NCBI RefSeq assembly: GCF_018332715.1
Contig: NZ_BOQP01000008.1
Location: 372,001 to 436,000, forward strand
DNA: 64,000 nucleotides
Source of the DNA: Winogradskya consettensis
GTDB taxonomy: Bacteria > Actinomycetota > Actinomycetes > Mycobacteriales > Micromonosporaceae
Direction: 5' to 3'
How positions within the stretch are numbered: position 1 is the first letter of the stretch; every line of letters starts with the position of its first letter. The translations under genes were made by a program, and so were the position numbers. Shown here in pieces: positions 17,606 to 40,157 of this stretch. The notes beneath the pieces are model-generated. The model saw only the letters and a program-made list of their open reading frames with translations, was not told the DNA's origin and made no database searches.

Positions 17606-17681
17606 GCGGACGTAGCGCAGCTGGTAGCGCATCACCTTGCCAAGGTGAGGGTCGCGAGTTCGAATCTCGTCGTCCGCTCCA
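17606..17681 (+). tRNA. tRNA-Gly (GCC)
   Basis: A full cloverleaf: acceptor GCGGACG/CGTCCGC, D arm GCGC...GCGC, anticodon arm TCACC-TTGCCAA-GGTGA with anticodon GCC, T arm GCGAG-TTCGAAT-CTCGT, discriminator T and encoded CCA. TAAAGT (17585-17590) about 16 bp upstream is a likely -10. Confidence 0.98.
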
Positions 17682-26768: not shown

Positions 26769-27070
26769 GGAGACCTCCCAGACCCCGGTTATCGCCAGCT
26801 CGACGAGCAGCCCCAGAATGCTGGCGCACCGCTTCCAGGACCACGGAGTCGCGCTCCTCATCCGCCGGGTCCCCTATGGTCAGAAACCCCGGACCGCACG
26901 CCGTCGGAGTCGCACCCGGCGAGGACGACGCTCATCCTCAGGCTCGGTCGCGCGCGAAACCGCACTCCTGGATCACGCGAATCGAGCCGGCGTTGTGAGC
27001 GGCGACTTGACCAAAGCCCGCCGCCGAGATCCCCGCCGCTCTGCCATCTACCGCCGGCTCAGGACTCCAG

Positions 27071-27249
27071 ATGTTGCGCTGAACACCGGAATCCGACAAC
27101 TTGATGCGGTGTCGCTCGTCAAGTCTCGGCAATCGTGTCTGACGGCCGACCATATTGTTTCGTCGCCGGACGCGATTGGCCCGCGCTTGACACCCGATGC
27201 TGCAGGAGATTGCGTCCAGGCGGGTTTCAGCGCAACTTCGTGCCCCGTG
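27071..27249 (+). repeat. Structured repeat, copy A (candidate ncRNA or hairpin element)
   Basis: A 164-bp core (27073-27236) is an imperfect inverted repeat centred near 27154. Nested helices are GTTGCGCTGA/TCAGCGCAAC at the ends, TGCGGTGT (27105-27112)/ATGCTGCA (27197-27204), GTCAAG (27118-27123)/CTTGAC (27186-27191), ATCGTGTCTG (27132-27141)/CGGACGCGAT (27167-27176) and an apical CGAC/GTCG. It aligns without gaps (118 of 164 identical) to copy B on the minus strand at 39946-40109, and both are followed by TTCGTGCCCCGTG. Pairing is kept where bases differ. No protein is convincing in it. The region 26862-27070 beside it has no supported gene. Confidence 0.75.
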
Positions 27250-27259
27250 CCAGCGCCGC

Positions 27260-28138
27260 TCAGGGTTGGGCGGTGGAGGGCTCGGTCATGCCGGCTGTCT
27301 TCGGGGCGCAGGCGAGCCACACCCGGCCCGCCTCGGTCAGCCGCAGGGCGACCGTCCCGGCGCCCGGATGATCAAGAGAAACAGAGCCGATCATGTCGTA
27401 CGCGGTATGCGCCGCCCCCGTCGCGACGATGCCCCACACCACACCGGCGCGCAATGCGTGCAACAGCGCCGCGTCCGTGTGAGGTTCGAGGTGCACCCGT
27501 GCCTCGGCCAGCGTCGTGCTGTCCGGTGCCGCGGCGATCACCCGGACGAGGTTGTTGAGGACGGCGGCGGCGTCGGGTGGGACGTCGGCGGTGGAATACG
27601 TGAGCCCGTGGATCGAGGGCAGAGCGAATCGCTGGTGCAGCACCTGGGTCGTCGCCGTCCAGGCCATGCTGGTGCCGTCGGTGAACGCGAGGCGGCTCTG
27701 GTGATCGTTGACGTCGTAACGAGCGATGCACATCCGGAACTCGTTGCGTGGGTGCGGCTCCGGCTGCTCCGGTGTGCCCCGGGCCGTCCTCTGGTTCTTC
27801 GTGACGACCCAGTTGCCGGGCCGGATGCCGCGGATCAGGCCCGCGCCCGGGCTGGTGCTGGTGAGTCTGCGCAGCTTGCGGTGCAGCCGTTCGAGGGCGA
27901 TGCCGCCGCGGAGCCGGTGGATCAGCGCGGTGAGCGGACGCCACCACAGCGCGAGCATCGCCAGGCAGGTCAGCAGGCCCAGGTAACGCAGCGTCCCGTT
28001 GACCTCGTTGAGGGCCGCGGCGAGCAGGGCGTTGGGCACGAACAGCGCGGCGAACGCGAGCAGACCGCTGAATCCCCGCCGCTGCACCACGCCGGTAGGG
28101 GTCCAGGACACAATGCGCACGGAACCGAGCCGGCTCAT
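27260..28138 (-). CDS. Hypothetical membrane-anchored protein
   Basis: 292 residues. Two hydrophobic segments near the N terminus (GLLAFAALFVPNALLAAAL and YLGLLTCLAMLALWW) are followed by a basic stretch (LERLHRKLRRL) and a long soluble domain (TKNQRTARG..., RMCIARYDVNDHQSRLAF, HALRAGVVWGIVATGAAHTAYDMIGSV). The soluble part probably faces the cytoplasm. I recognise no catalytic motif or family. The ATG at 28138 is clear. It begins 11 bp after the structured repeat on the opposite strand. Confidence 0.65.
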   Translation of the reverse strand: MSRLGSVRIVSWTPTGVVQRRGFSGLLAFAALFVPNALLAAALNEVNGTLRYLGLLTCLAMLALWWRPLTALIHRLRGGIALERLHRKLRRLTSTSPGAGLIRGIRPGNWVVTKNQRTARGTPEQPEPHPRNEFRMCIARYDVNDHQSRLAFTDGTSMAWTATTQVLHQRFALPSIHGLTYSTADVPPDAAAVLNNLVRVIAAAPDSTTLAEARVHLEPHTDAALLHALRAGVVWGIVATGAAHTAYDMIGSVSLDHPGAGTVALRLTEAGRVWLACAPKTAGMTEPSTAQP

Positions 28139-32275: not shown

Positions 32276-32420
32276 GAACAGCCGCGCGGGAGAGATCGCC
32301 AGTTCGTATGGCGGCGCCGAAGGGGCAAATCCTCCCCGGAACCTCTCAGGCAAAAGGACCGCGCTGGCAGGCGACTCTGAAATCCCTTCCTGGGGTGACA
32401 GAGGGGGAGGTTGCCTTGTC
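32276..32420 (+). promoter_or_regulatory. Glycine riboswitch before gcvP
   Basis: The aptamer is closed by GCGCGG (32284-32289) and CCGCGC (32359-32364) and contains the family core: GGGAGAGA, GCGCCGAAGGGGCAAA, CCTCTCAGGCAAAAGGACC. The following GGCAGGCGACTCTGAAATC looks like the ghost half of a single-aptamer glycine switch. CTCTG (32375-32379)/CAGAG (32399-32403), with inner ATCCC/GGGGT, makes an expression-platform hairpin. Glycine would turn on the decarboxylase that consumes it. Confidence 0.95.
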
Positions 32421-38646: not shown

Positions 38647-39894
38647 GTGGACAACTCCCTCCCGGCGCCCCTGTGGCGCCGGCGCAACTTTCAGCTGCTG
38701 ATCGGCGGGCGGCTGGTCTCGCAGGTCGGTGACCAGCTTCAGTTCCTCGCCCTGCCCCTGCTCGTCGTGGCCCTCACCGGGTCCGCCACCCAGGCCGGCG
38801 TCCTGCTCGGCCTGCAGACCGTCCTCTACCTGGGCTTCGGGCTGGTCGCCGGTGCGCTGGCCGACCGCTGGGACCGCCGAACCACCATGATCTGGTGCGA
38901 GGTCGGCCGTGCCGCGCTGACCGCCTCCATCCCCGTCGCCGCGGCGTGCGGCGCGCTCGGCATGCCGCAGCTGTACGCCGTCGCGGTCCTCACCGGTGCC
39001 CTCAGCACCCTGTTCGGCGCGGCTAACAGCGCGGTGCTACCGAACATCGTCACCAACGACGAGCTGCCCCGCGCGCTGGGAACGATCGGCGTGCTGTCCA
39101 ACACCCTGCGCATTGCCGGCGCCTCGGTGGCCGGCGTCGCCTACGCCGTGGGGCGGACGTTCCCGTTCGCGGTCAACGCCGCCTCGTTCCTGGTCTCGGC
39201 CGTCGCCCTGCGCGGCATCCGCGCCAACTTCCACCAAGAACGGGCCGACCTCCAGCAGGAACGGGCCGCGACCGGCGTGTCGCCGCGGGCTCTTGTGGCC
39301 GAGATCGGTCAGGGGCTGGGCTGGCTGTGGCGTACCCCGATGATCCGGACCCTCGCCCTGATCGATGCGGCGGACAGCCTGCGCTACGGCGCGGGCTACC
39401 TGCTGATCATCGTGCTGGCCCAGCGCCTGGACGCGAACCCCGCCCAGGTCGGGCTCGTGTTCACCGGCGCGGCGGTCGGGGCGCTGCTCGGCAGCGTGCT
39501 GGCACCGGTCCTCACCCGCCGGTATCGGCTGGGGAGGCTGTCGATCGCGATGCTGTGGGTCGAGGCGCTGGCGTTCCCGTTCTACGCGGTCGCGCCGGTG
39601 TGGTGGCTGCTGCTGGTCGTGGCGTTCGCGGAGTCGGTGGTGTCGCCGATCTACAACGTGGCCCTGGACTCCTACCGGCTCGCGGTCACCCCGGACGCGC
39701 TGCGGGGCAGGGTCACCAGCGCGATCGACACGCTGACCACCGGCGGCGCGGCGATCGGGACGATGGCGGGTGGTGCGTTGATCGCGCTGCTCGGTGCGCC
39801 AGCGCTGACCTATGTCCTGGCCGGCTGGCTCGTGCTGCTGGCTCTCACGGCGACCCTGAGCAGAACAGTCCGCAGGGCCGGAGCAACGACGTGA
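38647..39894 (+). CDS. MFS exporter (MFS_3 / macrolide-siderophore efflux type)
   Basis: 415 residues with about 12 membrane segments. WRRRNFQLLIGGRLVSQVGDQLQFLALPLLVVALTGS is the typical start of the MFS_3 group (MefA and EntS-like). GALADRWDRRTTMIWCE is motif A. ILGTIGVLSNTLRIAG-like and YRLAVTPDALRGRVTSAIDTLTTGGAAIG segments follow. Start GTG 38647, with AGGAC 7 bases upstream. The leader suggests induction by a translation inhibitor. The nearby siderophore operon is on the other strand, past two gene remnants, so export of that siderophore is possible too. Confidence 0.9.
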   Translation: MDNSLPAPLWRRRNFQLLIGGRLVSQVGDQLQFLALPLLVVALTGSATQAGVLLGLQTVLYLGFGLVAGALADRWDRRTTMIWCEVGRAALTASIPVAAACGALGMPQLYAVAVLTGALSTLFGAANSAVLPNIVTNDELPRALGTIGVLSNTLRIAGASVAGVAYAVGRTFPFAVNAASFLVSAVALRGIRANFHQERADLQQERAATGVSPRALVAEIGQGLGWLWRTPMIRTLALIDAADSLRYGAGYLLIIVLAQRLDANPAQVGLVFTGAAVGALLGSVLAPVLTRRYRLGRLSIAMLWVEALAFPFYAVAPVWWLLLVVAFAESVVSPIYNVALDSYRLAVTPDALRGRVTSAIDTLTTGGAAIGTMAGGALIALLGAPALTYVLAGWLVLLALTATLSRTVRRAGATT

Positions 39895-39932
39895 TGTTCG
39901 GAGTCTTTGACTCGTTTACAGGGGGACCTGGC

Positions 39933-40111
39933 CACGGGGCACGAAGTTGCGCCGGAACCGGCTGTGCCGCAACCTTCTGCGGCGTCAGATGTCAAGCCTG
40001 GACCAATCACGTCTGGCCAGGAAACACATGTTCTTCCCGTCAGACGTGATCGGCCGGATTTGACGAGCAACACCGCAGAAAGTTCTCGCATCCCGCTGTC
40101 CAGTGCAACAT
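39933..40111 (-). repeat. Structured repeat, copy B (candidate ncRNA or hairpin element)
   Basis: Inverted counterpart of the element at 27073-27236. The 164-bp core (39946-40109) folds about 40027. Helices (plus-strand coordinates) are GTTGCGCCGGA/TCCAGTGCAAC ends, TTCTGCGGCGT (39975-39985)/ACACCGCAGAA (40070-40080), GTCAA (39991-39995)/TTGAC (40060-40064), ATCACGTCTG (40006-40015)/CAGACGTGAT (40041-40050), and apical GGAA/TTCC. It sits just after the MFS stop and next to gene remnants, as copy A does. Orientation (-) is set by alignment to copy A and by the G-U pairs. Confidence 0.75.
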
Positions 40112-40157
40112 TCAGCCTCGCGGCATGGACTGCAAAGTGGCGGCCTTCGTGACACCG

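Follow-up and report, generated by a model that had tools for sequence, protein, structure and literature searches.

Two hairpin-forming repeats in a 64,000-nucleotide stretch of Winogradskya consettensis DNA (the window, which lies on contig C8 of the 10.6-Mb genome G000) are old and decaying members of a family of small IS630-type MITEs that has spread in one lineage of soil actinomycetes. In the best explanation, to which we assign a probability of about 0.87, both repeats are decayed non-autonomous elements in which IS termini of the IS630/Tc1-mariner type surround a hairpin of about 165 bp that is of other origin.

Results

The two copies, A and B, lie in opposite orientation in the window, together with the following adjoining features.

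27030–27070, + strand: degenerate IS630-type right-end remnant (..CTCAGGACTCCAG), a weak match with 3 mismatches in 15
27073–27236, + strand: copy A, MITE hairpin core (palindromic cargo), placed by fold, A/B alignment and genome matches
27237–27265, + strand: copy A, conserved tail TTCGTGCCCCGTG and truncated IS630-type right-end remnant
39891–39931, − strand: copy B, degenerate IS630-type right end (CCAGGTCC..GAGTCAAAGACTCCGAACATCAC)
39946–40109, − strand: copy B, MITE hairpin core, placed by fold, A/B alignment and genome matches
40112–40133, − strand: copy B, remnant of a module 5' of the hairpin (GCAGTCCATGCCGCGAGGCTGA) that is common to other copies

A first-pass annotation had described 118 identities over 164 ungapped positions, one long hairpin fold in each copy and a common downstream sequence. 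All of this holds: 118 of the 164 columns are invariant without gaps, A and B each run on into TTCGTGCCCCGTG, and with their flanks they fold at −86.1 kcal/mol (copy A; z −2.8, with 2 of 200 dinucleotide shuffles equally good) and −111.9 kcal/mol (copy B; z −8.0, 0 of 200). The remnant at 27030–27070 adjoins copy A on its upstream side, occurs in the orthologue from Winogradskya humida too and is apparently the relic of a different element copy. That orthologue (L167) is identical to copy A at 150 of 167 positions. The right-end call for copy B rests partly on a better-kept tail (L015) that resembles the IS right end. None of the Rfam covariance models reached its gathering score on the two hairpins, and the only Rfam matches within the window were a tRNA gene (17606–17678, +) and a glycine riboswitch aptamer (32277–32371, +), the latter upstream of a long + strand ORF.

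Collecting the genomic copies, as the annotation had proposed, revealed that A and B are not a lone pair but two members of a dispersed family. Copy A matches 36 stretches in G000, fragments included and A and B themselves among them; the W. humida genome G025 has 41 matching stretches, a few of which represent the two strands of one place. G025 is strain NBRC 14915 or near-identical to it, given that L043, a stretch from W. humida, finds a 100% match in G025:C29. Only these two genomes matched among 67 of the genus, and the remaining 352 of 354 Micromonosporaceae genomes (44 genera) had none. Copy counts were taken from the G000 and G025 searches only, because the genus and family searches scored few candidates per genome (at most 12 and at most 2, respectively). 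A single exact degenerate core pattern, run over 84,980 species genomes that may omit the window's own, was found in W. humida NBRC 14915 alone, at 8 loci. Searches of plasmid, phage and viral collections gave zero matches.

When the flanks of the copies are compared, the hairpin proves to sit inside a larger unit. Better-preserved copies start with CTAG[T/C]GTCCTGAGTC and finish with GACTCAGGAC[A/G]CTAG, which are inverted repeats. Both ends were found within 4 mismatches at 5 of 14 loci screened, with element lengths of 262, 307, 372, 388 and 423 bp; CTAG stands at both ends in two of these copies and at one end in the other three. Two left-end types, type-1 and type-2, occur around one hairpin, and many copies, A and B included, have lost one or both ends or retain them in degraded form. 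The family has the make-up of a MITE, with many dispersed short copies and terminal inverted repeats (TIRs), and the element showed no ORF for a transposase. The CTAG at the element ends suggests duplication of TA; the search for an empty site gave none that was clean, and G025 is rearranged at L010 and L016.

Other repeats were observed beside the element. Several hairpin copies (L003, L005, L006, L007, L013, L022 and L048) have short tandem repeats immediately upstream (units of ~6–15 bp, judged by eye and without a general intergenic control). A second, younger palindromic repeat of ~160 bp (ends GGCGCATCTGAGGGATCACG / CGTGATCCCTCAGATGCGCC) occurs at L002 and L055 (G000:C3, ~60.6–60.8 kb), where it sits at the CTAG of a MITE left end, with CTAG on both sides, and the G025 orthologue is empty. 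A stretch resembling it adjoins the MITE right end at L008.

The ends of the element lead to an IS. The 14-mer TAGTGTCCTGAGTC, present in 14 of 66 genus genomes, bounds an IS of 1.13–1.14 kb in the six copies examined (two in G041 and one each in G016, G045, G039 and G048), with the inverted repeat opposite at 0–2 mismatches. In the first G041 copy a single ORF of 365 aa matches NCBIfam transpos_IS630 (E 1.3e-81) and Pfam DDE_3. Our element shares its TIR with this IS630 element, which is 1.14 kb long and occurs in related genomes. Past the terminal 15 bp the resemblance continues: scores are 52–58 for the type-2 left end with each of the six IS copies (null maxima 24–29) and 28–44 for the element tail with three of the six (null maxima 23–26); the type-1 left end is marginal, at 23 against a null maximum of 22 in one of the six. 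Where the alignments are best, the transposase 3' end of the IS is the counterpart of the type-2 left end and of the tail alike, and the opposite IS end is that of the type-1 left end. Derivation of the hairpin itself from the IS was rejected, its scores against the IS being at null level. Since the ends resemble the IS beyond the TIR and the hairpin does not, the family is, on sequence grounds, an IS630-derived MITE carrying a hairpin of putatively foreign origin.

Neither carrier genome showed a close IS630 partner that is intact. Among the eight genomes searched, the best transposase relative in G000 is 41% identical and has one stop, and that in G025 is intact at 47%, with TIRs that are off by 2 and 3 of 14 positions. 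Six DDE_3 loci in G000 were discarded as partners: none has the TIR within 3 mismatches, and three have one single-sided match with 4 mismatches in 15, which was taken as chance. Mobilization would have been in trans, by an IS630-family transposase that placed the element in CTAG sites and duplicated the TA. This movement probably took place in the common ancestor of both species; by now the element is presumably largely immobile.

Shared positions in the two species give the insertions a minimum age. Flanks are shared (at least 600 aligned bases) in 22 G000/G025 locus pairs, which cover 18 of 30 G000 loci compared after duplicate G025 places were merged, a tandem array being one of the 18. 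In a FastTree tree of 51 of the 52 hairpin rows (L075 was left out as misaligned), 10 of the 15 interspecies pairs tested are sisters. Shared flanks together with sister placement make at least 10 insertions older than the split from W. humida, and the copies have since diverged through substitutions and deletions. At L021/L168 and L008/L165, a hairpin stands at the same locus in both species in opposite orientation relative to the shared flanks; these hairpins are 76–79% alike and non-sisters in the tree, suggesting that the site was used repeatedly or that two copies were formerly present.

The tandem array (L028:1180–2130; G000:C8, ~525.5–526.5 kb) consists of four diverged hairpin units and a partial one at a spacing of ~239 bp, and no IS ends are evident there. 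Its G025 orthologue, L133, matches the last unit only, and a search of the genus with the array matched G000 and G025 alone (2 of 67). TRF reported nothing at its threshold at this locus, though the units are shown by blast.

Insertion sites are biased towards gene 3' ends. Using our own, unvalidated codon-usage gene caller, we placed 24 near-complete copies and called a gene on either side of 23, which are flanked by convergent genes in 15 cases, by co-directional genes in 8 and by divergent genes in none. The convergent fraction exceeds that of the gaps in the window (4 of 37, p 2.5e-5) and that of 13 CTAG sites (3 convergent, p 0.035). CTAG is itself scarce, with 15 occurrences in the window against 56 expected; 10 are between called genes and 3 at stop codons, together the 13 sites used in the comparison, and 2 are inside genes. 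A location at gene 3' ends would follow from the rarity of CTAG and its position mostly outside genes, combined with selection against promoter disruption. A scan of copy A found no terminator-like stem with a T run.

The annotation had also read changes on both sides of a pair as evidence of selection on the fold, as in a structured RNA or a hairpin mobile element. Such double changes do occur, but they are no commoner than in column shuffles. The set of 28 copies, with 70 consensus pairs, has 82.9% of its cells paired against 82.7% in column shuffles (118 of 500 shuffles reached that level), and double changes in 13 pairs against 13.9; the set of 51 copies gave 86.1% paired cells against 86.0%, and double changes in 10 pairs against 10.2. 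The palindrome is real, given that sliding the pair partners drops pairing to 35–42%. RNAalifold yielded only 20 pairs and 0 compensatory changes on the 28 copies, and a consensus fold replaced it for pair counting. Single changes from Watson–Crick consensus pairs gave G.U and A.C in 29:29 distinct events, and across 13 orthologous pairs a map not taken from an RNA fold gave 43:37 (p 0.58). Maps from RNA folds lean towards G.U (43:29 and 30:20 among orthologue changes), which we discount because such maps favour G.U by construction. With pairing and double changes at shuffle level and no clear wobble excess, selection on the fold is unsupported. The mobile half of the earlier proposal stands, on dispersed copies, TIRs and IS630-like ends, and the half that invoked selection on the fold is not supported. 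The copies share the fold through descent from one palindromic ancestor, and it looks inherited, not actively maintained.

Stem sites do evolve somewhat slowly, and weak constraint on the stems is possible. We compared 17 G000/G025 pairs and kept 13 for rate counts, leaving out L008/L165 and L021/L168 as non-sisters and L003/L042 and L027/L070 for indels; the 10 sister pairs formed a further set. In the 13 pairs, Watson–Crick sites diverged at 107 of 1429 positions against 58 of 491 unpaired ones (p 0.005), and also more slowly than fourfold sites (p 0.0004). In the 10 sister pairs the contrast between paired (77/1099, 0.070) and unpaired sites (35/378, 0.093) is not significant (p 0.18), and the whole hairpin (130/1657) is slower than fourfold sites (p 0.001). 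Overall, orthologous hairpins diverged at 194 of 2167 sites (0.090) against 496 of 4668 fourfold sites (0.106) drawn from stop-free, GC3-rich flanking segments; hairpin divergence is 74–85% of the fourfold rate. Real copies also fold better than simulated copies with randomly placed substitutions, both in 24 copies (mean z −1.56, Stouffer −7.65) and in a simulation of the same type on the 13 orthologous pairs (mean z −1.83). Neither simulation is trusted: the former takes no account of subfamilies or of rates that vary from site to site, and the latter is biased, some of the differences being reversals of decay on the other branch. Of the 24 dispersed copies, 21 have the stronger fold on the + strand, and the − strand is favoured in three of four array units. 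The + strand bias may stem from the shared ancestor (consensus 10 G.U against 4 A.C, p 0.18).

Discussion

The slower Watson–Crick sites, the better folding of real copies than of simulated ones, the + strand preference and the G.U lean on RNA-fold maps are what one would cite for a structured RNA, or a regulatory element acting at the RNA level, whose fold is selected at each locus. We regard this as the most improbable of the readings considered, given the zero covariation beyond shuffles in 28 or 51 copies, the balanced wobble counts on other maps, the loss of significance in the sister pairs, the bias of both simulations and a strand preference that ancestry may explain. A role at the DNA or transcript end, in which copies were domesticated as bidirectional terminators or 3'-end barriers between convergent genes, would suit hairpins this long and stable and their predominance between convergent genes. 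It is nevertheless improbable: copy A lacks a terminator-like stem and T run, the hairpins diverge at 74–85% of the fourfold rate, and the same bias of the pneumococcal elements RUP, BOX and SPRITE and of IS is read as insertion tolerance in the excerpt of PMC3049150 used here. At similarly long odds, palindromes riding on IS630 ends may have been favoured during amplification and may now serve as read-through barriers between convergent genes in the two species, their stems being under weak purifying selection.

Somewhat less unlikely, though still doubtful, is that the hairpin was a separate mobile foldback unit, later captured by IS630 ends or inserted into them. The lack of any match between hairpin and IS, the array, whose four or more units have no evident IS ends, and the two left-end types around one hairpin all point that way. 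However, copies that lack one IS end look truncated, several of them keeping part of the right end, and neither a separate transposase nor a defined hairpin-only boundary turned up in the comparisons made here. Some of the same observations count against the preferred explanation, a decayed MITE with IS630-type termini, which does not account for the origin of the hairpin or for an array lacking evident IS ends; so do the missing close partner in G000 and G025, the rearranged candidates for an empty site and the weak match of the type-1 left end beyond its TIR.

The element belongs to a known class, MITEs with IS630-family ends, and looks akin in kind to RUP/IS630-Spn1, and the family itself looks new: among the matches listed in the open-licence literature, judged by title and the start of the abstract, none gives an account of it. 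RUP, the repeat unit of pneumococcus, is proposed to be mobilized by IS630-Spn1 (excerpt of PMC2229807). By its description, not its sequence, RUP is likewise short and tightly folded, with TIRs that resemble an IS630-family IS, enrichment between convergent genes and a TA-containing target, as with the CTAG at our element's ends (excerpts of PMC2229807 and PMC3049150). The two differ in that RUP measures 107 bp with a 9-bp TIR and has ~108 highly similar copies in Streptococcus pneumoniae, the species that also holds IS630-Spn1 (same excerpt of PMC2229807), whereas our element spans 262–423 bp, has longer IS-like ends and a separate ~165-bp hairpin cargo, and consists of old, diverged copies with no close cognate IS seen in either carrier. 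Correia/NEMIS elements of Neisseria are also dispersed MITEs with TIRs and TA at their termini, and their transcripts form stem-loops; they differ in their sizes of 107/155 bp, a 24-bp TIR and proposed RNase III processing (PMC2229807, in the part available). For the IS630 family (Tc1/mariner), including ISY100, insertion at and duplication of TA are the rule, and CTAG preference figures in the title of a paper cited there (PMC2170065, in part). Compared with these IS, our element has no visible transposase ORF, and its IS partner is assigned to IS630 by NCBIfam.

The family renders no far-reaching question testable. Its lesson for any two copies of a palindromic repeat is that a few 'compensatory changes' between them are the chance expectation from shared descent, and it ties CTAG-bounded insertion to gene 3' ends in a CTAG-poor genome. 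Through its orthologues in two species it is a datable fossil family, in which the decay of a hairpin can be measured against synonymous sites.
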